A stretch of 64,000 bases of DNA, from the NCBI GenBank assembly GCA_016703645.1, contig JADJBR010000009.1, forward strand, positions 1,065,501-1,129,500. The letters run 5' to 3'. The DNA comes from Zoogloea sp. (GTDB lineage: Bacteria > Pseudomonadota > Gammaproteobacteria > Burkholderiales > Rhodocyclaceae). Shown piece by piece: positions 2-20,474 of this stretch (position 1 is the first letter of the stretch; each line of letters begins with the position of its first letter). Both the position numbers and the translations under genes were made by a program. Under the pieces are notes generated by a model. That model did not search any database and was not told the origin of the DNA. It saw only the letters and a list, made by a program, of their open reading frames with translations.

Positions 2-499
2 AGCGGCTGGCAGGATCTCGAACTGAAACAATGGACGGGCGGCGAGGGCTTTGCCCGCCCGGGCTGGCCGCCCCGGCCCGCCAGCCTGTCCATCCACGTG
101 GATGGGCGCGGGCAGGTGGATGTGGACGATGTGCAGGCGTTTGACGGTCAGCTGCGCCCCCTGTTGCGCAACGGGGATTTCGAGCGCGGGGTGGACTACT
201 GGTTCTTCTCCTCCGACCGGGATCACCTGCCCTGGCACGCCAAGAACATCTTCGTACACAGCTACGTGGAACAAGGCCTGTTCGGTTTGGCGACGCTGGT
301 GCTGGCCTTGCTGGCCGCCGCAGCGCATCTGCTGCGGGCGCCCACCCGGCTGCATCCGCTGGCGCCCGTGCTGCTTGCCTCCCTGGCCGGCATCACGACG
401 GTGGGCCTGGTGGATAGTCTGCTGGACATGCCGCGCATCACCCTGATGATCATGCTCGTCCTGTGGCTGAGCCTGAGTCTGCGTCAACCGTCGCAATGA
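2..499 (+). CDS. O-antigen ligase/polymerase-like membrane protein, C-terminal part
   Basis: The reading frame is already open at base 2, so the gene starts outside the window; 165 residues are visible. A soluble stretch is followed by a segment reading HAKNIFVHSYVEQGLFGL, which resembles the His/Glu motif after the large periplasmic loop of Wzy polymerases and WaaL ligases. Three hydrophobic segments follow (near bases 280-340, 355-425 and 430-485). Such proteins polymerise or transfer polysaccharide repeat units at the periplasmic face of the inner membrane. The stop overlaps the ATG of the next gene (ATGA), so the two are probably co-translated and belong to an exopolysaccharide locus lying to the left. 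The substrate cannot be told from this fragment. Confidence 0.72.
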   Translation, partial: SGWQDLELKQWTGGEGFARPGWPPRPASLSIHVDGRGQVDVDDVQAFDGQLRPLLRNGDFERGVDYWFFSSDRDHLPWHAKNIFVHSYVEQGLFGLATLVLALLAAAAHLLRAPTRLHPLAPVLLASLAGITTVGLVDSLLDMPRITLMIMLVLWLSLSLRQPSQ

Positions 500-1740
500 G
501 GTGCGGGCCGGCAAGGTGGTGCCGTGCTGGCCTGTATGGTCTGGCCCTGCTGGCCTGTCCGCTGCAGGCTGCGGTAATCACCGTCGGGCCGCAGGAAAGT
601 GTGCGCCGCATCGCCGATGCGGCACGTCTGGCCAAGGATGGCGATACCGTTTTGATCCAGCCCGGCACCTACGCCGGCGACGTGGCGGTGTGGCGTCAGA
701 AATCCCTGGAGATTCGCGGCATTGGTTCCCGTCCGGTACTGGATGCGCGTGGCACCGTGGCCGAGGGCAAGGCCATCTGGGTGTTTTCCGACGGAGACTT
801 CAAGGTCAGCAACATTGCCTTCCGCGGTGCCCGTGCCGCCGATTACAACGGTGCCGGCATCCGCTTCGAGCGGGGGCGCCTGGAGGTGCGCGACTGCCTG
901 TTCGAGGACAACGAAATGGGCCTCCTGACCGCCAATTTCGAGGATGCGGCCTTGCGTGTCCTGGATAGCGAATTCCGCGATGCGCCCCGGGATACGCGAT
1001 CCCTGCATCACCTCCTTTACGTTGGCCGGATTGCGCACCTCTCCGTGGAGGGCAGCCGTTTCCATGGCGGCTACCAAGGACACCTGTTGAAAAGTCGGGC
1101 CCGCCGCAGTGAGATCCGCTACAACCTGCTGATCGACGGCAAAGACGGGCGGGCGTCCTACGAGCTGGAGTTTCCCGAGGGCGGTGTGGCGGTGGTGGTG
1201 GGGAACGTGATCGGGCAGGGGGCGGACAGTGCCAACCCCACCGTGCTGGCCTATGGTGCCGAAGGCAGCCATTGGCCGGAGAACCGACTGCTCCTGACCC
1301 ACAACACCCTGATCAGCGAGGGCTGGCGGCCAGCCCTGTTCGCCCGGACATGGGGCGACAGGCTGCCCGCCGATACCCGCTTCGTGGTGCGCAACAACCT
1401 CACGGTGGGCCTGGGGCTGTTCACCCTCGGCCTGCCCGGGTGGCACCAGGGCAATCATGCGCTGCCCCCCGGTGCGCTCGATCCGGCGCAGGGGGATCTC
1501 ACCCTGGCGGAAGACAGCCTGCTGCGCGGTCGGGTCAGCCCCCCGCCGGAGGCCGGGCTGCGGCCGACAGCGGAATTCCGTTTTCCCGTGGGCACCGTGC
1601 CCCTGGTGGTGCCCACGCGCTGGGTGCCCGGGGCCTTTCAGCGCCCGGCGACGATGCTCCCCGGACGACCCGCCGCGCCAGGGGCGACGGGATGGCGCGC
1701 GGGCTTGCCCGTGGCGCTTACTGGCGTCGCCTCGCCCTGA
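496..1740 (+). CDS. Secreted right-handed parallel beta-helix protein
   Basis: The 414-residue product has a clear signal peptide (charged MRCGPARWCR, hydrophobic core, cleavage near LQAA). A repetitive body rich in N-N-L, G-N-V and short turns follows, typical of the pectate-lyase-like right-handed beta-helix. The start at 496 is preferred over an in-frame ATG at 463 because it overlaps the upstream stop as ATGA and begins directly with the signal peptide. Relatives often sit in exopolysaccharide clusters as putative lyases or binding proteins acting in the periplasm or outside. I cannot see a convincing catalytic triad, so enzymatic activity is not claimed. The C-terminal 60 residues are proline-rich and may be disordered. 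Confidence 0.75.
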   Translation: MRCGPARWCRAGLYGLALLACPLQAAVITVGPQESVRRIADAARLAKDGDTVLIQPGTYAGDVAVWRQKSLEIRGIGSRPVLDARGTVAEGKAIWVFSDGDFKVSNIAFRGARAADYNGAGIRFERGRLEVRDCLFEDNEMGLLTANFEDAALRVLDSEFRDAPRDTRSLHHLLYVGRIAHLSVEGSRFHGGYQGHLLKSRARRSEIRYNLLIDGKDGRASYELEFPEGGVAVVVGNVIGQGADSANPTVLAYGAEGSHWPENRLLLTHNTLISEGWRPALFARTWGDRLPADTRFVVRNNLTVGLGLFTLGLPGWHQGNHALPPGALDPAQGDLTLAEDSLLRGRVSPPPEAGLRPTAEFRFPVGTVPLVVPTRWVPGAFQRPATMLPGRPAAPGATGWRAGLPVALTGVASP

Positions 1741-2689: not shown

Positions 2690-5215
2690 TCAGGCGGCGA
2701 AGGTGGCCTGGCCGGCCCCGCCGACATGGCTGAAGAAGCGCATGGCCAGCCGGTCGGACAAGGCGCGTCCGGCGCGCGTCAGGTGGTCCAGATGGTCTGC
2801 CAGCGCCAGGGTGGCTTCGGCGCGTTCGTCTTCGGGTACGGTGGCCTCCAGCTTGGCCCAGGGGAAGCGCTGCAGGGCCGCATAGCTGGCGTCCAGCTCG
2901 TCGATACCCAGTTCGTTGCCATCCATCTCGAAGTTGCGCAGGTAGTTGGTCAGCATGCGCACCTGGAAGGCCAGGGCATGGGGGTTGGCGCCGTCCATGG
3001 TGAGCAGGTGGATGGCGGGCAGCAGTTCCGGCTGGGCACGATAGCGGGTGCGGTAGGTGATGATGGAGTCGCACAGTTCGAGCAGGGCCTCCACCGCCAG
3101 CTCCCGCTGCAGTGGGCCGGCAATGTCCACATGGCGCCTCAGGAAGCGAGCAAGGCTGCCGGCCAGGGTGTCCAGGCGCTCGATGCGCCGCCCGACGATG
3201 TGCAGGCGCCAGCCCATGTCGCGGGTCATGGTGTCCATCGCGAAGCCCGACAGGGAGACGAAGGTGGTGAGGGCTTCGTCGAGGAATTCGAGCAGGGCGG
3301 AGACATCGGAGACCCGTCCGCGGGCACTCTCGAGGTCGGCGGAGAGGCGCTTGAGGGCATGCCAATGGTCGAGGGAGAGGTGCTCCCGGGCCTGGGTGGC
3401 GCACCAGGTGAGGCGCTGCAGGTTGGCCGCCAGGCCACTGTCGGCGCGCCGGTCGAGCACGGCACGGAAGAGATCCAGCTCGGCCTTGGCCAGGGGCAGG
3501 GTGGCCACGTCCTTTTCCACCAGGCCGGCGCCGGCCGCCAGTTCGAGCATCATCGACAGGGCGCCGGCCCGTTCGGTGCGGCGTCCTTCCGAGAGGCGCG
3601 ACAGGGCCAGCCGGGCCAGTCGCGCCACCGCATCGCAGCGTTCGCCATAGCGCCCGAACCAGAACAGGTTCTCGGCCAGACGTGACGACAGGGTGCCGGT
3701 CTCGTTGATCAGGTCGTCCATCCGGATGGTGTTGTGGAGCAGGCTGAAGGTGGACACCGGGCCGTCGGAGAGCACCCAGGTGTCCTTGCTGCTGCCGCCC
3801 TTCTGCATGGTCAGGATGCGGGTGTTGTCCATCCCCGCCACCCGGGCCAGTCCGCCGGGCAGCACGCTGTAGCCTTCCGGGGTGATGGCGGCATAGACCC
3901 GCAGGCCCATGGCCCGGGTCAGCAGCTTGCGGCGCTGACCGCCGGACCACGCCGGTGCCCGGGACAGCTTGACCAGCTCCTGGGCAACGAAGGCGGAGGG
4001 GTCGGCCTCGATGCGTCGGGTGAGGGCGGCCAGTTGTTCGTCGTTGAGCTGGTCGCCGAAGATGACTTCGCTGGAGCCCCCGGGGAAGGTCGGCTTGATG
4101 ACCAGATCTTTTATGTTCTTGATGACCTCGGCCAGGGCCGGCTCTTCGCCGCACCACCAGGTGGCGACGGAGGGCATGGCCAGTTCTTCCCCGAGCAGGT
4201 GACGCGAGATACCCGGCAGGAAGCCCGGCAGGGCGGCGGATTCGAGCAGGCCGCTGCCCAGGGCGTTGGCCACCAGCACCCGGCCGGCACGAACGGCGCT
4301 GAGCAGGCCGGGAATACCGAGGGCCGAGTCGGCGCGCAGCTCGACGGGATCGCAGAAGTCGTCGTCCAGGCGGCGCAGGATGGCGTGAACCCTTTTCAGG
4401 CCGGATACCGTCTTCAGGTAAACGGTGTCGTGGCGCACGGTGAGATCCTGCCCCTCGACCAGGGGAAAACCCAGGTAGCGGGCCAGATAGACGTGTTCGA
4501 AGTAGGTTTCGTTGAAGGGCCCCGGGGTGAGCAGCACGGTCAGGGGCGGCTCGCCGTCCGACGGTGCCTGACTGCCCAGGCTGCGCTGCAGGCCGCGGAA
4601 GAAGCCGGCCAGGGTCTGCACCTGCAGGTCGCGGAACAGATCGGGGAAGGCGCGGGACACCAGCAGGCGGTTCTCGAGGGCGTAGCCGGCACCGGAGGGA
4701 GACTGGGTGCGGTCGGCGATGACCCACCACTGCCCGTCCGGTGAGCGCGCCAGATCGGCGGCGTAGAGATGCAGGTAGGTGTCGCCGATGGGCTGGATGC
4801 CCTTGCAGGGCCACAGGAAGCCCTTGTGCCCATGGACCAGCTCAGGGGGCAGGAGGCCTTCGGCGAGGGTGCTCTGCTCGCCATACAGATCGGCCAGCAG
4901 GGCGTTGAGCAGGCGTACCCGCTGACTGATGGCAGCGGCAATGCCGCGCCACTCGTCCGCCGGGAGGATCAGCGGCAGGAGGTCAAGCGACCATGGACGA
5001 TCGGTACCGCGGGGGTCGGCATAGACGTTGTAGGTGACGCCGTTCTGCTGAATGCCGCGGGATAGCTGGGCGGCGCGGGCCTTCAGGGTGTCGGCACTCA
5101 CCTCGTCGATGTGATCGAGGAATTCCTGCCAGTGGGGGCGAACGCCGTCTTCTCCGAACAGCTCGTCGTAGCTGTCGGGGCGATAGGGGTAATGGGCAAG
5201 GATCGAACTGGGCAT
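2690..5215 (-). CDS. Circularly permuted ATP-grasp and Alpha-E domain fusion
   Basis: This 841-residue protein joins a circularly permuted ATP-grasp domain (DUF404/DUF407 type, roughly residues 70-480) to an Alpha-E all-helical domain (DUF403 type, roughly 505-830, beginning around SSRLAENLFWFGRYGER). In many genomes these two are separate genes; here they are one chain. Circularly permuted ATP-grasp enzymes are predicted to form peptide or amide bonds with ATP. Alpha-E is of unknown function but almost always accompanies them. The glycine-rich GGSSEVIFGDQ and KPTFPGG stretches fit the nucleotide-binding part. It lies between a DUF2126 protein (118 bp upstream) and a transglutaminase (12 bp downstream). 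No biochemical function is established, so the product is assigned only by family. Confidence 0.87.
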   Translation of the reverse strand: MPSSILAHYPYRPDSYDELFGEDGVRPHWQEFLDHIDEVSADTLKARAAQLSRGIQQNGVTYNVYADPRGTDRPWSLDLLPLILPADEWRGIAAAISQRVRLLNALLADLYGEQSTLAEGLLPPELVHGHKGFLWPCKGIQPIGDTYLHLYAADLARSPDGQWWVIADRTQSPSGAGYALENRLLVSRAFPDLFRDLQVQTLAGFFRGLQRSLGSQAPSDGEPPLTVLLTPGPFNETYFEHVYLARYLGFPLVEGQDLTVRHDTVYLKTVSGLKRVHAILRRLDDDFCDPVELRADSALGIPGLLSAVRAGRVLVANALGSGLLESAALPGFLPGISRHLLGEELAMPSVATWWCGEEPALAEVIKNIKDLVIKPTFPGGSSEVIFGDQLNDEQLAALTRRIEADPSAFVAQELVKLSRAPAWSGGQRRKLLTRAMGLRVYAAITPEGYSVLPGGLARVAGMDNTRILTMQKGGSSKDTWVLSDGPVSTFSLLHNTIRMDDLINETGTLSSRLAENLFWFGRYGERCDAVARLARLALSRLSEGRRTERAGALSMMLELAAGAGLVEKDVATLPLAKAELDLFRAVLDRRADSGLAANLQRLTWCATQAREHLSLDHWHALKRLSADLESARGRVSDVSALLEFLDEALTTFVSLSGFAMDTMTRDMGWRLHIVGRRIERLDTLAGSLARFLRRHVDIAGPLQRELAVEALLELCDSIITYRTRYRAQPELLPAIHLLTMDGANPHALAFQVRMLTNYLRNFEMDGNELGIDELDASYAALQRFPWAKLEATVPEDERAEATLALADHLDHLTRAGRALSDRLAMRFFSHVGGAGQATFAA

Positions 5216-5334: not shown

Positions 5335-8300
5335 TCAGCGCCGCAGATCGAGGGTGAAGGGGAATTCCCGCTCCACCGGCGAGATCTTCACCTGGGGTTC
5401 GCCCGGGGTGTGCCCCATGCGGAAGAAGCGCGCCAGGCGGCGGCTCTCCGCCTCGAAGGCATTGATCGGGAAGGTCTCGAAGCTGCGGCCGCCCGGGTGG
5501 GAGACGTGGTACTGGCAACCCCCCAGGGAGCGTCCGGTCCAGGTATCCACCAGGTCGAAGACCAGCGGCGCATGGGGCGGAATGGTGGGGTGCAGGCAGG
5601 ACGGCGGCTGCCAGGCCCGGTAGCGCACCCCGGCCACATGCTCGCCCACCGTGCCGGTGGGCTGCAGCGGGATGGTGCGTCCATTGACGGCGAGCAGGAA
5701 GCGATCATCCGACATGCCGGTGGCCCGTACCTGCAGGCGCTCGACGGACGAGTCGACAAAGCGCACGGTGCCGCCGATGGCCCCTTCCTCACCCATCACA
5801 TGCCAGGGTTCGAGGGCGCTGCGCAGCTCGACCTCGATGCCGCGCACGGCGAACTCGCCGATCTTCGGGAAACGGAACTCCATGTGCGGAGCAAACCACT
5901 CCGACTTGAAGGGCAGGCCGTGGGCCTGCATGTCTTCCATGACGTCGTTGAAGTCCTGCTGCACGAAATGCGGAAGCAGGAAGCGGTCGTGCAACTCGGT
6001 GCCCCAGCGCACCAGGCGCTCGGGTGCGTAGGGGGTTTCCCAGAAGCGTGCCAGCAGGCCGCGCAGCAGGAGCTGCTGGGCCAGGGACATGCGCGCATGG
6101 GGCGGCATTTCGAAGGCGCGCAGCTCAAGCAGGCCGAGGCGCCCGGTGGGGCCGTCCGGCGAGTAGAGCTTGTCGATGCAGAACTCGGAGCGGTGGGTGT
6201 TGCCGGTGACGTCGATCAGCAGGTTGCGCAGCAGGCGGTCGATCAGCCACGGCGGCACGCTCTCGCCCACCTTCGGGAACTGGCGGAAGGCGGTTTCGAT
6301 TTCGTACACCGAATCGTTACGTGCTTCATCGATGCGCGGTGCCTGGCTGGTCGGGCCGACGAACATGCCGGAGAACAGGTAGGACAGGCTGGGGTGGTTG
6401 TGCCAGTAGGAGATCAGGCTGCGCAGCAGGTCCGGGCGCCGCAGGAAGGGCGAATCGGACGGCACTGCGCCGCCGAGCACGAAGTGGTTGCCGCCGCCGG
6501 TGCCGGTGTGGCGACCATCGACCATGAACTTCTCGCTGGTCAGGCGTGAGTAGTGGGCCGACTCGTAGAGGTGGGTGGTGCGCTCAACCAGCTCTTCCCA
6601 GTTGCTGGCCGGGTGGATGTTCACCTCGATCACGCCGGGGTCGGGGGTGATGCGGAAGTGCTGCAGGCGCGGGTCGGAGGGCGGCTCGTAGCCTTCCAGC
6701 ACCACCGGCATGCCGAGGTCCTCGGCGGTGGCTTCGATGGCGGTGACCAGTTCGAGGTACTTCTCGAGGCTGGACAGGGGCGGCATGAAGATGTGCATGG
6801 TGCCGTTGCGCGGTTCGGCGCACATGGCGGTACGCACGATCCAGTCGGCCGACTTGAACATCTCGGGCTGACGGTCGGTGGGGCTGAGCTTCTCGGCGTC
6901 GCGGGCGGCCTTCAAGGCTGCTGCGGCGCGGGCCGCGGAAGAGGAGCCAAAGCCGGCCTCGTCGTCCTTGAGGGCGTTGAGCACGGCTGTCTGGCCGCCG
7001 GGGAGCTGGCGGCGGATGGCTTTGTACTCGGGCAGTGGCGGGAAGGATTGGTGGCTGTCGACGGGATTGACGTAAGGGTAGTCACCCTTGGCCACCCAGG
7101 GCTGGGAATCCAGGGGCAGGCGATAGCCCAGAGGGGAATCACCAGGGATCAGGTAGCAGCGCTCGTCGCGCAGGAACCACGGCCCGGTCTGCCAGGCGCC
7201 GGTGTAGGCGTCGAGGCTGATCGGCAGCACGTAGCCGATCGGATTGGGCAGGCCGTGTTCATACACGCGGCGGATGCGGTCGCGCTCCAGCGGGTCGTCC
7301 AGGCGGGCATCGAAGGGGTCTACGTTGCCCGGCAGGCGGCGTTCACGCCACAGGTAATAAAAGGCATCCTCGTAGGCCGGGAAGACCCGGCGCTGATCCA
7401 CCTCGAGGCGGGCGGCAACGCCGGCCAGGAAAGTGTGGGCCTTGTCCACCTTGACGTCGCCGGGGGTGCTGGCGTCGCCGATGAGGTCCGGGTTCATCCA
7501 CACCGGCTGGCCGTCCTTGCGCCAGAAGCAGGTCAGGGACCAGCGCGGCAGCTGTTCGCCCGGGTACCACTTGCCCTGACCGAAGTGGGCCAGGCCGAAG
7601 GGGGCGTACTTGTCGCGCAGGCGGTGATACAGATCCTCGGCACGGACGCGCTTGGTGGGACCCATGGCCTCGGTGTTCCACTCGGCGCCATCCGGATCGT
7701 CGATGGACACGAAGGTCGGCTCACCGCCCATGGTCAGGCGCATGTCGTTGGCTTCGATGTCCGTGTCGATGAGGTGGCCGAGGGCTTCGATCTCGGTCCA
7801 CTGTTCTTCGGTGTATGGTTTGGTGACCCGCGGCGCTTCCTTCACGCGGGTGACCTTCATCACGTGCTCGAACTCGCATTCGCAATCGTCGATCAGACCG
7901 GACACCGGCGCGGCGGAGGAGGGATCGGGCGAAGCCGCCAGGGGGATGTGGCCTTCGCCGGCAAACAGCCCGGAGGTCGGGTCGAGGCCGACCCAGCCGG
8001 CGCCGGGCAGGTACACCTCGGTCCACGCGTGCAGGTCGGTGAAGTCCACCTCCGTGCCGGACGGGCCGTCGAGGGACTTCACGTCGGCCTTCAGCTGGAT
8101 CAGGTAGCCGGACACGAAGCGCGCGGCCATGCCCAGGTGGCGCAGCAGCTGGACCAGCAGCCAGGCGGAGTCACGGCACGAGCCGGTGCGCTTGGCGAGG
8201 GTTTCTTCCGGCGTCTGGACGCCCGGCTCCATGCGGATCACGTAGCCGATGTGCTTCTGCAGGTCGGCGTTGATCTTGACCAGGAAGTCCACCATGCGCA

Positions 8301-8715
8301 GCTTGTCGCGGGGAATGGTGTCCAGGTATTTCTGGAATTCGGGAGTGGCTTCTTCCTTCAGGAGATACGGGGCCAGCTCATGGCTGAGGGCGCCGGCGTA
8401 TTCGAAGGGGAAGTTCTCGGCTTCGGGTTCCAGGAAGAAGTCGAAGGGGTTGATGACCGACATCTCGGCGACCAGGTCCACTTCCACGCTGAACTCGGTG
8501 ACTTTTTCCGGGAAGACCAGGCGGGCGAGGTAATTGGCCTGGGGGTCCTGCTGCCAGTTGATGAAGTGCGGCTTGGGCAGCACCCGCAGGGAGTAGGACA
8601 GGATGCGGGTCCGGCTGTGGGGCGCAGGGCGAAGACGAACAACCTGCGGGCCGACGGTGATCGGGCGGTCGTACTTGTAGGAGGTCAGGTGATTGAGGGC
8701 AACGTGAATGGTCAC
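5335..8715 (-). CDS. Transglutaminase-DUF2126 fusion protein (predicted amidoligase)
   Basis: The product is 1126 residues when started at GTG 8715. That start has a GGAG ribosome site six bases upstream, whereas the in-frame upstream extension to 8769 overlaps the predicted sigma54 promoter. Residues 1-290 form a transglutaminase N-domain and core with catalytic Cys near 180 (GSCRDSAW), His near 229 (DLHAWTEV) and Asp near 245 (GLDPTSG). The remainder is DUF2126, which comparative studies relate to glutamine-synthetase/GCS-like carboxylate-amine ligases. The protein would therefore carry a bond-breaking and a bond-making module. It is the first gene of the operon with the ATP-grasp/Alpha-E fusion and the second transglutaminase. 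The substrate is unknown, and the ligase role is inferred from family analyses. Confidence 0.88.
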
Positions 8716-8764
8716 GGGATACTCCGTTCTTGGGGCTGCGGGTTTCAGGCTTGCTTGTACCTCT

Positions 8765-8780
8765 AGCAAACTTCACGCCA
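8765..8780 (-). promoter_or_regulatory. Predicted sigma54 (-24/-12) promoter of the amidoligase operon
   Basis: On the minus strand the sequence reads TGGCGTGAAGTTTGCT. The invariant GG and GC are separated by exactly ten bases, as required for sigma54 promoters (consensus TGGCACG-N4-TTGCT; two mismatches in the less conserved centre). Transcription would start near 8755, giving a leader of about 40 bases before the GTG at 8715. Potential NtrC sites lie about 130-190 bp upstream, a usual distance for enhancers. Confidence 0.6.
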
Positions 8781-8896
8781 CCCGGTTTATCCCGTTCCGA
8801 TGACAATCCTGTTGCAGCGTCAGCCCTTTTTCGGGCTTTCTGAGGGGAGGATGATCGCTCCGATCTCTCGAAGGGCGCTCGGCGAGTGCTCGCCAC

Positions 8897-8943
8897 GGTG
8901 CATGCACCAGAATGGATAGCGGGTGATGCACCAATAGCGTGCA
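8897..8943. promoter_or_regulatory. Predicted NtrC enhancer sites
   Basis: The stretch TGCACCAATAGCGTGCA at 8927-8943 fits the NtrC consensus TGCAC-N7-GTGCA exactly in both half-sites. Just beside it lies a perfect 12-bp palindrome GGTGCATGCACC (8897-8908), whose right half starts a second, half-degenerate site (TGCAC followed by AATGG). The cluster sits upstream of the predicted sigma54 promoter of the DUF2126 operon and downstream of the stop of the SUMT gene, so the DUF2126 operon is the only obvious target. Confidence 0.55.
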
Positions 8944-8986
8944 TGCGTGCACGGAAGAATAACGCATCGGGCCGCGTCACCCGACC

Positions 8987-9895
8987 TCATTCAGTGGCTG
9001 CGGCGACGCATTGAGCCTTGCCGGCAAACCAGCTCAGCTTGCCGGCAAGGCTCACCACCTCACCGACGATGAGCAGGGCGGGGGGCCGGATGCCGGCCTC
9101 CAGGGCCCGTGCGGGCAGGCTCTCCAGGGTGCCGGTGACCACCCGCTGGCGGGCCGTTGTGCCGTTCTCCACGAGGGCGGCAGGGGTGTGCGCCGCACGC
9201 CCGTGGCCGACCAGCGCGGCGCAGTGCGCGGCCAGCTGGCCGACGCCCATGTAGATCACCGCGGTCTGGTGCGGCCGGGCCAGGGCGGCCCAGTCCAGGG
9301 TTGATTCCCCGTCGCGCCGGTGGCCAGTGGCAAACACCACTGACTGGGCATGATCCCGGTGGGTCAGGGGAATGCCGGCATAGGCGGCCACGCCGCAGGC
9401 GGCGGTGATGCCCGGCACCACCTCGAAGGCCACGCCGGCCGCCACCAGCGCCTCCACCTCTTCGCCGCCCCGCCCGAAGATGTAGGGGTCGCCCCCCTTC
9501 AGGCGCACCACCCGTCGGCCCGCCGTGGCCAGGCGCACCAGCAGCTGGTTGATGTCCTCCTGGGGCAGGGTGTGATGGCCGGATTCCTTGCCCACGTAGA
9601 TCCGCTCGGTGCCCGGGCGGGCCAGCTCCAGCACGCCCTCCCCCACCAGATGATCGAGCACCAGCACGTCGGCTTCTCCGATCAGGCGTGCGGCGCGCAG
9701 GGTCAGCAGCTCCGGGTCACCCGGGCCGGCGCCCACCAGGGCCACTCTGCCAGGTGCCGTGCCGCCGAGGCGTCTCGAGCCCGGGCTGGGTTCCAGCCCT
9801 CGGCCGTGCTTGCTGACAAGGTGATCGAGAAAGGCACGCAGGGCGCCGGCGGCAGGGGCAGGCATTGCGAGGCTGGCAGTGACGGGCGGAGGCAT
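8987..9895 (-). CDS. cobA: Uroporphyrinogen-III C-methyltransferase (SUMT; probable NirE)
   Basis: This 302-residue enzyme methylates uroporphyrinogen III at C2 and C7 with S-adenosylmethionine to give precorrin-2, the branch point to siroheme, cobalamin and heme d1. Family motifs are clear: [32 protein letters not shown] and [20 protein letters not shown]. The start at ATG 9895 has GGGAG eight bases upstream; the longer in-frame start at 9967 would overlap the FNR-type box. It is divergent from nirS and shares a 154-bp control region with it, which argues that it serves heme d1 synthesis (NirE) rather than siroheme. The roughly 55 N-terminal residues before the domain are unusual and of unknown role. 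Confidence 0.9.
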
Positions 9896-9917: not shown

Positions 9918-11771
<1,854 letters not shown>

Positions 11772-12590: not shown

Positions 12591-13609
12591 ATGAATGCTA
12601 CAACGTACGGCATGGATATCGCCAAGAACGTTTTCCAGGTTCACTGGGTTGATGGCAACACGGGAGAGATCTGCCGCAAGAAGCTCCCGCGCGGCAAAGT
12701 GACCGAATTCTTCGCCGTGCGTCCGGCCGGTCGGATCGCCATGGAAGCGTGCGGCGGCGCCCACCACTGGGGGCGCACCCTCGGTCCGCTGGGCCATCAG
12801 ATCGAATTGTTGCCCACGCACCAGGTCCGCCCCTTCATCAGCGGCAACAAGGATGACGCGGCCGACGCCCGGGGATCTGGCTGGCGGCCCAACACGGAGA
12901 CATCCGCCGGGTGGCGGTCAAGAGCAGCGAGCAGCAAGCCATGCTCAGCCTGCACCGCATGCGCACCCACTGGGTCAGCGTCCGGACAGCGACGGTGAAT
13001 GCCCTGCGCGGGCTGCTCTACGAATTTGGCGTGACCCTTCCCCGAGGTCGGCACTCAGGCCTGCGACAACTGGCCCAGCAGCGGGCCGAGATCAACGACG
13101 CCGTGCCGGCGGTCATGGTGCGGCTGGTGGACGATCAACTGCTCGCCCTTGCGGACATCGAACGGCACGTCCAAGCGATGGAAGAGGAGATCAGCCTGAT
13201 GCTCAAGAGCCAGGAAAGCGCCCGTCGTCTGCGTGACACCCCGGGGATCGGCGTTCTCGGCGCCACCGCCCTGGCAGCGACCCTGGGCGATGGCACGAGT
13301 TGGCGCAACGGGCGTGAATTTGCCTGCTGCCTCGGTCTTGCTCCGGGTCATCGGGGCACGGGCGGCAAAGTGCGCATAGGGAGCATCAGCAAGCGTGGGA
13401 ACGCCTACCTGCGAACCCTGCTGATCAACGGCGCCCGCGCTTTGGCCAGCCGCGAGCACCCGGCCCCGTGGATCGTGGCGCTGCTGGGGAGGCGCCCCTT
13501 CAACGTGGTGGTGGTCGCCATCGCGCACAAGCTGGCACGCATCGCGTGGGCTTTGGTGGCGCATGGGCGGGCCTACGAAGCGAGCTGGAAAGCGTCAGCT
13601 CCCCGGTAG
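12591..13609 (+). pseudogene. IS1111-group transposase, frameshifted
   Basis: The N-terminal half (frame of ATG 12591, GAGAGG upstream) shows YGMDIAKNVFQVHW, MEACGGAHHWGR and NKDDAADAR, which carry the acidic residues of the RuvC-like DEDD domain. At 12871-12874 the frame breaks: family proteins continue AADARAIWLAAQHGD, and that sequence resumes in the next frame from ATC 12875 to the stop at 13609. A single lost base in GCCCGGG(C)GATC explains it. The second half contains the IS110/IS1111 C-terminal domain (DTPGIGVLGATALA, GHRGTGGKVRIG, SKRGNAYLRTLLINGARA). Intact, the protein would be about 340 residues. No programmed-frameshift signal is evident, so the gene is probably dead. Confidence 0.85.
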
Positions 13610-16204: not shown

Positions 16205-19200
16205 CTAATCCGATTTGTTCCCGGTGGCAATGCAGGTGGCTTGCCTTATGTGGGCTGGAGAACGCTGGAACAGTCGCGCCAGCAGGTTTTCGAGATCGTC
16301 CACGTAGGTGTATACCGCAGGAACCACCAGCAGGCTGAGCAGGGTCGAGCTGATCAGGCCGCCGATCACGGCGATGGCCATCGGCGCGCGGAAGCTCGGG
16401 TCGGCGCCCAGGCCCATGGCGATGGGCAGCATGCCGGCACCCATGGCCAGGGAAGTCATGACGATGGGGCGGGCGCGTTTGCGGCAGGCATCCACCAGGG
16501 CGTCGAAGCGGTTCATCTCCACGCCACCGCGGCCACGACGGGCCTCGATGGCGTATTCGATGAGCAGGATCGAGTTCTTGGTCACCACGCCCATCAGCAT
16601 CAAGAGGCCGATCAGCGAGGGCATGGAGAAGCTGCTGCGGGTGGCCAGCAGGGCCACGAAGGCCCCGCCGATGGCCAGGGGCAGGGCCGCCAGGATGGTC
16701 ACCGGCTGGGTGAAGCCCCGGAACAGCAGCACCAGCACCATGTAGATGCACAGCACGCCGATGCCCATGGCCAGGCCGAAGCTGCCGAACAGCTCCTGCA
16801 TCATCTCGGCGTCCCCGGAATCGGCCAGGCGTACTCCGGGGGGCAGGTTCTGCAGGGTCGGCAGGGCCAGTGCCTCGTTGTACACCTCGCCCAGCTCGCG
16901 CTGACCGAGCTCCACCTCGAGGATCACGTTGCGACTGCGGTCCAGACGGTTCACCTGGGCGGGGCCGCTATCCATGCTGATGCTGGCCACGTTGGCGAGC
17001 TGCACCGGGCCGTTCTTGCCCGGCACGGTGAGGCGGCCGATGGCCTCCAGGTCGGCACGCACGGCGTTGGGCAGACGCACCCGGATGGGTACCTGGCGGC
17101 GCTCCAGGTTGAGCTTGGCCAAACCGACGTCGTAGTCGCCGGCGGTGGCCACGCGCACCGTCTCGCCGATGGCATCAGCTGTCACACCCAGGTCGGCAGC
17201 CCGGGCGAAATCCGGGCGCAGCACCACTTCGGGACGCACCAGGCTGGCGCTGGAGGTGATGTTGCCGACCCCCTTGAGGGTGCGCAGGTCGCGGGTGGCG
17301 GCCTGGGCCACCACGGCGAGGGCGGCCGGGTCGTCGCTCTTCAGTACCAGGATCATCTTCACCCCGGAGTCGGCCGGGCCGACCGTGACGCGCACGCCCG
17401 GCAGCAGGCCGAGGCGCTCGCGCATCTCCACCTCCACCGCCTGCTGGTTGCGGTGGCGTTCGGTGCGATGGCTGAGGGTGACGGTGAGCACCGCCCGGCG
17501 TACTTCGGCCGCTGCGCCGGGGTTGAAGCCGTCACCGGCGGCACCGCCGCCGATGGAGCTGAAGACCGCCTTCACGTCGGGCATCGTGGCGATGGCGGCG
17601 CGGGCGGTTTCGGCGGCTGCCCAGGTCTCCTTGAGGGTGCTGCCCGGCGGCAGCTCCACATTCACCAGGGTCTGGGCCCGGTCGGCCGGGGGCACGAAGC
17701 CGGTGGGCAGCAGCGGGATCAGCATCACCGAGCCGACAAAGAAGGCGATGGCGCCGAGCAGGGTCAGGAAGCGGTGGCGCAGGCACCACTGCATGCTGCG
17801 CATGTAGGTGCGCATGATGCGGCCCTCCGGCATCTCCCCCTGGGCCGCCGGGCGCATGAAGTAGGCCGCCATCATGGGTGTGAGCAGGCGCGCCACCACC
17901 AGCGAGGCGATGATGGCGAGCACCGCGGTCCACCCGAACTGCTTGAAGAACTTGCCGGCGATGCCGGCCATGAAGGCCGTGGGCAGGAACACCGCCACCA
18001 GGGCGAAGGTGGTGGCGATGACCGCCATGCCGATCTCGTCGGCGGCTTCCAGGGCTGCTTGCAGGGGCGTCTTGCCCATGCGCAGGTGGCGGGCGATGTT
18101 CTCGATCTCGACGATGGCATCGTCCACCAGGATGCCCACCACCAGGGCCAGGGACAGCAGGGTGACGGTGTTGAGGGTGAAGCCGAACCAGGCCATGCCC
18201 AGAAAGGTGGGAATCACCGACAGGGGCAGGGCCAGGGCGGCGACGAGGGTGGCGCGCCAGTCGCGCAGGAACCACCACACCACCAGCACCGCCAGCAGGG
18301 CGCCCTCGTAGAGCAGTTGCATGGAGCCGTCGAAGTTCTCCTGCACGGCGGCCACGTTGTCGTAGGCGTGGGTGAAGCGCAGCTCCGGGTGGGCGGCCTG
18401 CAGTTCGGCCACCGCCTTCACCACGCCTTCCGTCACCGTGATCTCGCTGGCGCCCCGGGTGCGCGAGACCTCGAAGCCCACCACCGGCTTGCCGTCGAGC
18501 AGGGCCACCGAGCGGCGTTCGGCGGTGGTGTCGGTGATGGTGGCGATGCGCTCCAGGCGCACGCTGCGCCCGCCGGGCAGGGGAATGTCCATGGCCGCCA
18601 GGGCCTGGGCACTGGCGACGGTGGCGATGGTGCGCACGGCCTGTTCGCCGCCGCCCACATCACCGCGGCCGCCGGGGGCCTCAAGCTGGGCCTTGCGTAG
18701 CTGGCGGGACACGTCGGCGGCGCTGACGCCGAGGGCGGCCATGCGGTCGGCGTCCAGCTCCACACGCAGCTCGCGGGTCAGGCCGCCCATGCGCTTGACG
18801 GCGCCCACGCCCTTCACCGCCAGCAGGCGGCGGGTCACGCTGTCGTCCACCAGCCAGCTCAGGGCCTCCTCATCGAGGGTGTCGGAGGTGAGGGTCCAGG
18901 CGCCCAGGGGCCGGCCGGCGGTGAGAATCTTCGCCACCACCGGGTCGCGCACGTCGGCGGGGAGGTCGGAGCGTACCCGGCTGACGGCGGCGCGAACCTC
19001 GGTCTCGGCCTCGTTGGCGTTCTTTTCCAGCTCGAACTCGATGGAGATCGTCACCTCCCCGTCGAGGATGGTGGTGTACATCTTCTTGATCTGGGCCAGG
19101 GTCGCAATGCTGTTCTCCAGCTTGCGGGCGACCTCGGTTTCCAGGGTGCCGGGGGCGGCGCCGGGCAGGCTGGCGCTGACCGTGACCACCGGTAGTTCGA

Positions 19201-19318
19201 TGTCCGGGAAATCCTGGATGCCGGCGCCCCGGAAGGCCAGCAGGCCGGCCAGGGTGAGCAGGGCGAAGAGCAGGATCGCCGGGATGGGATTGCGGATGGA
19301 GAGGGCGGAGAAGTTCAT
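16205..19318 (-). CDS. RND efflux transporter permease (AcrB/MexB-like HAE1 family)
   Basis: This is a 1037-residue inner-membrane proton/drug antiporter. The start is ATG 19318 (MNFSALSIRNPIPA), 7 bp after the stop of the adaptor gene; the longer in-frame ORF to 19465 overlaps that gene. Twelve membrane helices with two large periplasmic loops are evident. The proton-relay aspartates of TM4 are present in LVVGILVDDAIVEIENIARH, and the second repeat shows LIGLLMLMGVVTKNSILLIEYA. Together with the adaptor and the outer-membrane channel it forms a tripartite pump. It is the last gene of a TetR-led operon. Substrates cannot be predicted reliably. Confidence 0.94.
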   Translation of the reverse strand: MNFSALSIRNPIPAILLFALLTLAGLLAFRGAGIQDFPDIELPVVTVSASLPGAAPGTLETEVARKLENSIATLAQIKKMYTTILDGEVTISIEFELEKNANEAETEVRAAVSRVRSDLPADVRDPVVAKILTAGRPLGAWTLTSDTLDEEALSWLVDDSVTRRLLAVKGVGAVKRMGGLTRELRVELDADRMAALGVSAADVSRQLRKAQLEAPGGRGDVGGGEQAVRTIATVASAQALAAMDIPLPGGRSVRLERIATITDTTAERRSVALLDGKPVVGFEVSRTRGASEITVTEGVVKAVAELQAAHPELRFTHAYDNVAAVQENFDGSMQLLYEGALLAVLVVWWFLRDWRATLVAALALPLSVIPTFLGMAWFGFTLNTVTLLSLALVVGILVDDAIVEIENIARHLRMGKTPLQAALEAADEIGMAVIATTFALVAVFLPTAFMAGIAGKFFKQFGWTAVLAIIASLVVARLLTPMMAAYFMRPAAQGEMPEGRIMRTYMRSMQWCLRHRFLTLLGAIAFFVGSVMLIPLLPTGFVPPADRAQTLVNVELPPGSTLKETWAAAETARAAIATMPDVKAVFSSIGGGAAGDGFNPGAAAEVRRAVLTVTLSHRTERHRNQQAVEVEMRERLGLLPGVRVTVGPADSGVKMILVLKSDDPAALAVVAQAATRDLRTLKGVGNITSSASLVRPEVVLRPDFARAADLGVTADAIGETVRVATAGDYDVGLAKLNLERRQVPIRVRLPNAVRADLEAIGRLTVPGKNGPVQLANVASISMDSGPAQVNRLDRSRNVILEVELGQRELGEVYNEALALPTLQNLPPGVRLADSGDAEMMQELFGSFGLAMGIGVLCIYMVLVLLFRGFTQPVTILAALPLAIGGAFVALLATRSSFSMPSLIGLLMLMGVVTKNSILLIEYAIEARRGRGGVEMNRFDALVDACRKRARPIVMTSLAMGAGMLPIAMGLGADPSFRAPMAIAVIGGLISSTLLSLLVVPAVYTYVDDLENLLARLFQRSPAHIRQATCIATGNKSD

Positions 19319-19325
19319 GGCGCGC

Positions 19326-20474
19326 TCAGCGGGTGGTCGGGGCGAGGGCCTGGACGCTCGGTGGCACAAGCTGGACCAGATCGCCGTCGTTGAGGAAGCC
19401 GGCGCCGCTGGCCACCACGCGGGCGTCGGGCTTGATGCCGGCGAGGATCTCGACCCGCTCTGCATCCCGATAGCCGACTTCCACCTTGGTCTGGGTGACG
19501 CGGTTGTCGGTGCCCACCAGGAAGACGTGATTGAAGCCGTCGCGCATGGCCACGGCCTGGCGCGGCAAGGTCAGGCCGCGGGACTTGCCGAGGGCAAATT
19601 CGCCGCGGGCGAACATGCCGGCCTTGAAGGCGGCGTCCGGGCCATCGCCGGCACCGCCGGGGAGGTCGACGTAAACCAGCGCGTTGCGGGTTTGCGGGTC
19701 CACGGTTGGCGCCACGGTGCGTACGGTGCCCGTGGTCTGGCTGCCACCGGGCGCGGTGATGCGCACCTTCTGCCCCCCACGCACCCGGGCCAGTTCGGCG
19801 GCGGGCACGTCGGCGCGCCATTCCAGGCGATGCTGGCGGATCAGGCGGAACAGCTCCTGGCCCTGGGGGACCACGGCGCCGAGGGTGGCGGCCGGGGCGC
19901 GGAAGGAGATCACACCGTCGTCGCTGGCCAGTACCTTGGTGTGGCGCAGGCGCAGGTCGGCGGCGGCCAGAGTGGCCCTGGCGGCCTTCACCCGGGCGTC
20001 GGCGGCGGCCTCGGCGGTGAGGTATTGCTGGAGCTGCTGGGCGCTCAGGGCGCCGCTCCCATCCACGCTACGGGCCCGGCCGGCGTTGGCTCGGGCCTCC
20101 TGCAGGGCGGCCTCGGCCTCGGCCAGGGCGGCACGGGCCTGGGCCTGGTCGGCCACGGGGATGTCGGCGGCGAATTCGGCCAGCAGTTCGCCGCGCTTTA
20201 CGCGGGCACCTACGTTCACCTTCACGTCGATGAGGCGCAGGCCGCCTGACTCGGCACCCAGGGAGGCCTCCTGCCAGGCGGCGATGCTGCCATTGGCGGC
20301 CAGGTTGCGCTCCATGTCGCGGCTCTCGGGGGTCGCGACGGTGACGGTCAGGGCAGGCTTGGCCGGGCTCGCCGTTGCGGTGGTCGCCGCCGGAGCGGCC
20401 TCGTCGCCGGATGAGCAGGCGGCCAGGCCGATGAGGCCAAGAAGGGCGATAAGGGTGTGGCGGGCGGCGATCAT
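19326..20474 (-). CDS. RND efflux periplasmic adaptor lipoprotein
   Basis: This 382-residue membrane-fusion protein has a lipobox (GLIGLAACSSG, Cys20), so it is anchored to the inner membrane and reaches into the periplasm. A barrel-sandwich/lipoyl half (VNVGARVKRGELLAEFA), a helical hairpin (AQARAALAEAEAALQEAR...) and a beta-barrel domain follow in the usual order. Its start overlaps the end of the outer-membrane gene by 4 bp, and its stop lies 7 bp before the permease start, so the three are translationally coupled. Confidence 0.93.
   Translation of the reverse strand: MIAARHTLIALLGLIGLAACSSGDEAAPAATTATASPAKPALTVTVATPESRDMERNLAANGSIAAWQEASLGAESGGLRLIDVKVNVGARVKRGELLAEFAADIPVADQAQARAALAEAEAALQEARANAGRARSVDGSGALSAQQLQQYLTAEAAADARVKAARATLAAADLRLRHTKVLASDDGVISFRAPAATLGAVVPQGQELFRLIRQHRLEWRADVPAAELARVRGGQKVRITAPGGSQTTGTVRTVAPTVDPQTRNALVYVDLPGGAGDGPDAAFKAGMFARGEFALGKSRGLTLPRQAVAMRDGFNHVFLVGTDNRVTQTKVEVGYRDAERVEILAGIKPDARVVASGAGFLNDGDLVQLVPPSVQALAPTTR

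Follow-up and report, generated by a model that had tools for sequence, protein, structure and literature searches.

The intergenic region 8716–8986 of the window (the whole stretch of 64,000 nt analysed here) is, judging from its motifs and their conservation, very probably an NtrC-activated sigma54 promoter that places the DUF2126 operon in the nitrogen-starvation regulon. Nitrogen control of this operon family is already in print for B. cenocepacia (PMC5491218, in the part of the text available). As far as our searches show, three points are new: the occurrence of the promoter in the Zoogloea lineage, the extent of its conservation and where this ends, and a paired, unlinked operon in the same genome. 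The regulation itself is ordinary, and its value is that of a handle on an unsolved enzyme system; the very probable membership of the NtrC regulon, together with the second operon, indicates under which growth condition and on which genes function can be tested.

Operon genes and motifs of the upstream gap

The operon lies on the minus strand and begins with the DUF2126 gene (5335–8715; PF08379, PF01841 and PF09899), which encodes an N-terminal transglutaminase domain followed by DUF2126, a “putative amidoligase”; its GTG start codon at 8715–8713 is preceded by AACGGAG. A circularly permuted (CP) ATP-grasp fused to Alpha-E (2690–5215; PF14403/PF04174 and PF04168) and a transglutaminase-like protein (1751–2677; PF08379 and PF01841) follow. 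The latter was taken as the last gene, and the operon presumably ends with it, because the ORFs beyond, 463–1740 (+) and 484–1458 (−), overlap each other; a Pfam search of the ORF 463–1740 gave no match. According to an AlphaFold model and fold comparison, the C-terminal part of the DUF2126 protein is predicted to adopt a glutamine-synthetase fold. When glutamine synthetases were compared with a DUF2126 domain profile built from the usable sequence of 8 of 23 loci, the result was not significant (hhalign probability 0.3%), so that the fold assignment derives solely from the model comparison.

As the initial annotation had proposed, the region upstream of the operon is intergenic, extending between the end of a SUMT-like ORF (8987) and the DUF2126 start (8715). 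The sigma54 −24/−12 element, TGGCGTG-AAGT-TTGC, was located at 8766–8780 (−), where the minus strand from 8780 to 8766 reads TGGCGTGAAGTTTGC; 10 bases separate GG from GC, which is the exact GG-N10-GC spacing that had been described. A loose sigma54 pattern gave 93 matches in the window against 86 expected and was not significant alone, and a stricter pattern was found at 73 places genome-wide against 16 for the reversed control. The element of the window is regarded as significant because it is conserved before orthologous DUF2126 genes.

The main NtrC-type enhancer box, TGCACCAATAGCGTGCA at 8927–8943, is the exact TGCAC-N7-GTGCA palindrome claimed for this position. In the 64-kb window this palindrome was observed once against 0.09 expected and was present in 9 of 100 shuffles; across the 4,987,483 bases of the genome it occurs at five places, of which 8927–8943 is one. 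The shuffle p value of the main box was 0.005, the lowest that 200 shuffles allow. A second, weaker NtrC-like box, TGCACCAGAATGGATAG at 8903–8919, matches at 10 of 14 informative positions and stands in tandem with the main box, their centres 24 bp apart; a second TGGTG block comparable to it was found in both other Zoogloea loci (L005 and L006). The nearby palindrome that had been counted with these motifs, GGTGCATGCACC at 8897–8908, is indeed present, but it lacks NtrC spacing and overlaps the end of the weaker box. The predicted transcription start lies at ∼8754, 12 bases past the GC, which would centre the two boxes at about −181 and −157.

A scan of 8400–9300 for sigma70-type promoters found none, and a search of the same segment against Rfam returned nothing at the gathering threshold. 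A terminator-like hairpin at 8966–8985 (−), called by pattern scan only, directly follows the SUMT-like gene and is consistent with a separate transcription unit. Two further symmetrical sequences were seen. One is a short hairpin, AGCCC-TTTTTC-GGGCT, at 8822–8837, in the stretch that separates the sigma54 element from the NtrC boxes. The other, at 9012–9054 within the 3′-terminal part of the SUMT-like gene, is an inverted repeat whose 16-bp arms match perfectly around an 11-bp loop. Divergent from the SUMT-like gene is a gene for a nirS-like cytochrome cd1 nitrite reductase (9948–11771; PF02239); an IS110-family transposase-like ORF (12911–13606; PF02371) and genes for an AcrB-type RND pump and an HlyD-type membrane-fusion protein (16208–20474) also lie in the window.

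Conservation of the sigma54 element and the NtrC boxes

Upstream regions were scanned with sigma54 and NtrC matrices written from consensus sequences, in the window and 78 relatives (79 loci; L014 and L016, without upstream sequence, were left out of 81). Within −120 to −30 of DUF2126, 53 of the 79 loci reached a sigma54 score of at least 12 against 0.38 expected, and 57 a score of at least 10 against 1.15, the sigma54 expectation being derived from the remaining sequence of the same loci. By group, labelled by us from record titles, with the Rhodocyclales including MAGs placed by similarity, the higher score was reached in 30/30 Pseudomonas loci, which are closely related and so weigh less than their number, in 10/17 Rhodocyclales, in 10/22 Burkholderiales and in 3/10 others. 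Independently of any matrix, no other block of 16 bases lying 5′ of the ribosome site and start codon was as well conserved as the sigma54 element in two alignments; the alignments made comprised 13 of the 81 loci (A1), 14 of the 30 Pseudomonas-group loci (A2), 43 of the 81 loci (A3) and 12 (A4).

Relatives of DUF2126 were present in 35 of 185 genomes sampled class-wide, own genome included. The upstream set held 33 genomes, one of the 34 others (G116), in which only the C-terminal half matched, having been dropped; it includes L180, whose extrapolated start is uncertain, and L152, with just 252 bp upstream. A sigma54 score of at least 12 at −120 to −30 was found in 6 of the 33, against ∼0.16 expected by our arithmetic at the rate of the 79-locus scan, and seven genomes scored at least 10. 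Class-wide, a sigma54 promoter before DUF2126 is thus well above chance and far from universal.

In some bacteria a second-type CP-ATP-grasp gene precedes DUF2126 on the same strand, and the sigma54 element tends to go with whichever gene comes first, standing before the ATP-grasp where this leads the cluster. A score of at least 12 at −30 to −120 from the start of the upstream ATP-grasp match was obtained at four of nine loci (L013, L019, L068 and L069); L071 scored 10.4 and L021 8.8, and three Marinobacter loci had none in range. Among class-wide genomes with the ATP-grasp first, four of six have an element scoring at least 12 no more than 250 bp from the estimated start, at −111 to −49 in L151, L160 (its −12 part poor) and L175 and at −174 in L176, the other two being L168 (11.9) and L148 (9.1). 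A sigma54-like match at −292 from the ATP-grasp match of L061 was excluded from these counts; the sequence before the upstream ATP-grasp was too short to score in L044 and L079, and in L065 a second-type Alpha-E also lies upstream, with the ATP-grasp start outside the available sequence. Where the genes form divergent pairs, the element was found in both directions in two of five (L158 and L167).

Of the 57 loci that have the sigma54 element, 25 carry an NtrC box that beat 200 shuffles (p ≤ 0.05), compared with 1 of the 22 that lack the element. The initial annotation had proposed that the motifs be sought in homologous operons; they recur there in part, the sigma54 element as counted above and the strong NtrC box in a group-dependent manner. 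Among sigma54-positive loci, a box of at least 11 was found in 9/11 Rhodocyclales and 2/3 others, but in only 3/30 Pseudomonas and 0/13 Burkholderiales; at a score of at least 8 the counts were 11 Rhodocyclales, 18 Pseudomonas, 2 Burkholderiales and 2 others, the 95th and 99th percentiles of the background per 210 bases being 8.4 and 11.6. Class-wide, a strong upstream box accompanied the element in two (L155 and L158) of the seven genomes with sigma54 scores of at least 10. At sites before a leading ATP-grasp it was present in 3 of 12 (L068, L160 and L176), with too little sequence in L069 and L071 to judge. When L054, L075, L077, L078, L083 and L084 were scanned to −700, NtrC matches reached at most 10/14, and the 11/14 boxes of L080 and L081, at −275 and −307, fall beyond the counted range. 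NtrC/sigma54 control of the DUF2126 operon is not universal, because none of the 13 sigma54-positive Burkholderiales loci carries a box of at least 11 and the element itself is limited to 6 of 33 genomes class-wide.

The Burkholderiales loci L064, L077, L078 and L082–L084 have a sigma54 element before DUF2126 without a strong NtrC box. NtrC is encoded in 22 of the 23 genomes tested (from 80 genomes sampled), and the Burkholderiales lacking strong boxes encode it where tested, except for one MAG (L076). In a comparison of four loci, NtrC-like boxes were found above a sigma54 element at two Comamonadaceae P-II (glnK-type) loci, L106 and L108, and no sigma54 element was found at L100 and L101.

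Putative nitrogen promoters and a second operon in the same genome

Both regulators are encoded in the genome of the window, ntrC (703.5 bits against a cut-off of 558.6) and rpoN (474.1 bits against 277.35); other enhancer-binding-type proteins match the NtrC model below its cut-off. At L097, where a 247-aa gene, glnK and amtB form a run, a sigma54 element scoring 19.1 lies ∼45 bases upstream of the first gene, and NtrC boxes stand ∼100 bp above the element. The 247-aa gene (L097:2489–3292, contig C9), which has a signal-peptide-like start, thus stands between an NtrC/sigma54-type promoter and glnK-amtB. Before the other glnK-amtB pair (L098) stands a sigma54 element scoring 16.7, and no NtrC box of at least 11 matches was found nearby. 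According to the pattern lists, paired sigma54 and NtrC-like sites lie upstream of nirB (TIGR02374, 947 bits), of a nitrate reductase/formate dehydrogenase-like gene, loosely so named as it is below every cut-off shown, and of an NMT1/SsuA-like ABC transporter, whose box is one of the five exact palindromes. Two of these five have a nearby sigma54 element, for which simple, post hoc arithmetic gives a chance of ∼8e-5.

Weak NtrC boxes were taken among the matches listed, so the set is a partial regulon. Among the same matches, a pilin-like gene has a sigma54 element with weak NtrC boxes; type IV pilin genes are usually PilR-driven, so not every such pair need be bound by NtrC.

Only two Alpha-E matches were found in the genome. 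The second belongs to an operon on another contig (C7; L183:4381–6818, minus strand) that is unlinked to the window operon and has a sigma54 element of its own. Here Alpha-E follows a CP-ATP-grasp gene, whose start lies 64 bp after the first base of the element TTGGCATGCTTCTCGCT (score 14.7, with an imperfect −12 part); three NtrC-like boxes begin 66, 85 and 109 bp above the element. The exact pattern YGCACYA-N5-GTGCR, scanned for before the second operon was discovered, occurs at seven places in the genome, two of which precede the only two Alpha-E matches. The ATP-grasp of the second operon is 74–85% identical to the upstream ATP-grasp of L013, L019, L044, L068 and L079, in which this second type is clustered with DUF2126. 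The two operon halves are unlinked in the window genome and yet, judging from their motifs, have a common switch architecture.

In the mechanism that we propose, phosphorylated NtrC would bind the tandem boxes at 8903–8943 when nitrogen is short and would loop onto sigma54-RNA polymerase held at 8766–8780. Transcription would then proceed from ∼8754 and cover DUF2126, ATP-grasp/Alpha-E and transglutaminase in a single message. The NtrC regulon would be common to the window operon, the glnK-amtB run, the nitrite/nitrate-type assimilatory genes and the second operon, which in some other bacteria is joined with the DUF2126 operon in one cluster. That the Zoogloea organism itself responds to nitrogen in this way is what we infer from its sequence. 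The window promoter resembles the other nitrogen promoters of its genome (glnK-amtB run, nirB, nitrate-reductase-like gene) in having an element with boxes, and differs from them in that its boxes lie further out (about −157 and −181) and that the genes of the operon are not known assimilation genes.

Published systems, rival explanations and possible function

The closest published case, as described in the available part of PMC5491218, is I35_5080-83 of B. cenocepacia H111, four genes listed as common sigma54 and NtrC targets, whose expression drops 6.0- to 9.4-fold when ntrC is mutated. They likewise encode DUF404/DUF407, DUF403, transglutaminase-like and large transglutaminase-like proteins. 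I35_5083 was taken to be DUF2126, an assignment by analogy, because B. arboris (L071) has the matching gene order CP-ATP-grasp, Alpha-E, transglutaminase, DUF2126. The second-type ATP-grasp half stands first in that cluster, whereas in the window genome the halves are separate operons with promoters of their own.

The sigma54/NtrC control suggested by the initial annotation thus gains support from conservation, from the nitrogen genes of the same genome, from the second operon and from the B. cenocepacia cluster. A rival reading, that the motifs are due to chance and that the operon is read either from some other promoter that escaped recognition or through from the SUMT-like gene, has in its favour that the loose sigma54 pattern is common in the GC-rich window; the recurrence of the element in position at most of the 79 loci, the empty sigma70-type scan and the terminator-like hairpin behind the SUMT-like gene make this reading highly improbable. 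It is somewhat less improbable, and still quite unlikely, that the sigma54 promoter is real and is driven mainly by another enhancer-binding protein, the NtrC-like boxes being secondary. Candidates for such an activator exist among the proteins below the NtrC cut-off, and the Burkholderiales keep the element without strong boxes, even though NtrC is encoded in nearly all genomes tested and the P-II loci L106 and L108 have their boxes. Against it stand the strong boxes at most sigma54-positive Rhodocyclales-group loci and the NtrC dependence of the B. cenocepacia cluster (PMC5491218, same part). NtrC activation of the window promoter is the reading we retain.

The Anbu operon of P. putida (PP_2685-2688) and of Y. 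bercovieri (PMC6376114) likewise has ATP-grasp, Alpha-E and transglutaminase genes, with the difference that it contains the proteasome-like Anbu gene, which the window operon lacks; from the gene names in the available texts it follows that the P. putida operon has no DUF2126. As given in the accessible parts of the papers, genes of the P. putida operon rise under nitrogen-limited conditions or with nitrate (PMC7801951, PMC3325844, PMC8050072). Against NtrC/sigma54 control, PP_2686-2688 were still induced 14- to 20-fold in an rpoN mutant, although urtA, which is NtrC-assigned in P. putida, stayed induced too (PMC7801951), and in biosensors the PP_2685 and glnK promoters were nitrogen-agnostic and PP_2688 responded 3.7-fold (PMC8050072). 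Two proteasome-family matches were found in our genome, on contigs C10 and C4, the window being on C9. The gene on C4 (L095:4627–5379; PF00227, 30.6 bits) is probably Anbu-like; no ATP-grasp/Alpha-E operon was found around it, and no sigma54-like site of at least 11.5 upstream.

The four locus tags of the mycobacterial counterpart are absent from the main text of PMC4950008 as available, and a literature search on its nitrogen control found nothing relevant. The available main text of PMC5748707, on nitrogen starvation of Paraburkholderia phymatum, contains no mention of transglutaminase, DUF403 or DUF404. An NtrC peak lies at the Caulobacter transglutaminase homologue hvyA, whose transcription, in the portion of the report available, rises in the ntrC deletion; it was rejected as a parallel, the operon being a different one. 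In the accessible part of a Bradyrhizobium RpoN paper, a sigma54-like box at −247 is listed for an ATP-grasp gene.

As to function, the amide bonds would be made or remade by the predicted glutamine-synthetase-fold and ATP-grasp ligases and cut or transferred by the transglutaminase-like domains. The narrowing to nitrogen storage or scavenging in the initial annotation is not supported, because NtrC control covers other functions too: in B. cenocepacia it extends to exopolysaccharide, motility and other genes (PMC5491218, as available). Two predicted ATP-dependent amide ligases, one with the predicted glutamine-synthetase fold, would suit the synthesis of a nitrogen store by the operon, for instance as an amide-rich polymer. 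Such a store built during starvation would be odd. The Ntr system activates NtrC targets under nitrogen scarcity, a time when a store is consumed, not made; the papers on such operons, in the parts available, link no polymer to them and name no substrate of the enzymes. We consider a store unlikely; rather than laying one down, the enzymes would, as our best guess, modify or turn over peptides or proteins in nitrogen starvation.

A bolder proposal, offered tentatively and rather unlikely, is that Proteobacteria have a single nitrogen-starvation pathway of which the DUF2126 operon encodes one half and the separate CP-ATP-grasp/Alpha-E operon the other, the two being joined by the common NtrC switch where they are unlinked. 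To recycle nitrogen, the pathway would mark or remodel proteins or peptides by ligating amides and by transglutaminase-type cleavage, with a function like that of pupylation or ubiquitin tagging. Tagging or turnover is put forward in the Anbu papers, in the sections available, as a still unproven hypothesis; in one of these papers the Y. bercovieri ATP-grasp is reported to release phosphate from ATP (PMC6376114, PMC5666114). The window also has together the CP-ATP-grasp, Alpha-E and transglutaminase-like genes of the amidoligase operon of Iyer et al. 2009, as cited in the accessible text of PMC6376114. Metagenome correlations link the domains of the operon to urea metabolism domains (PMC3597751, in the part available).
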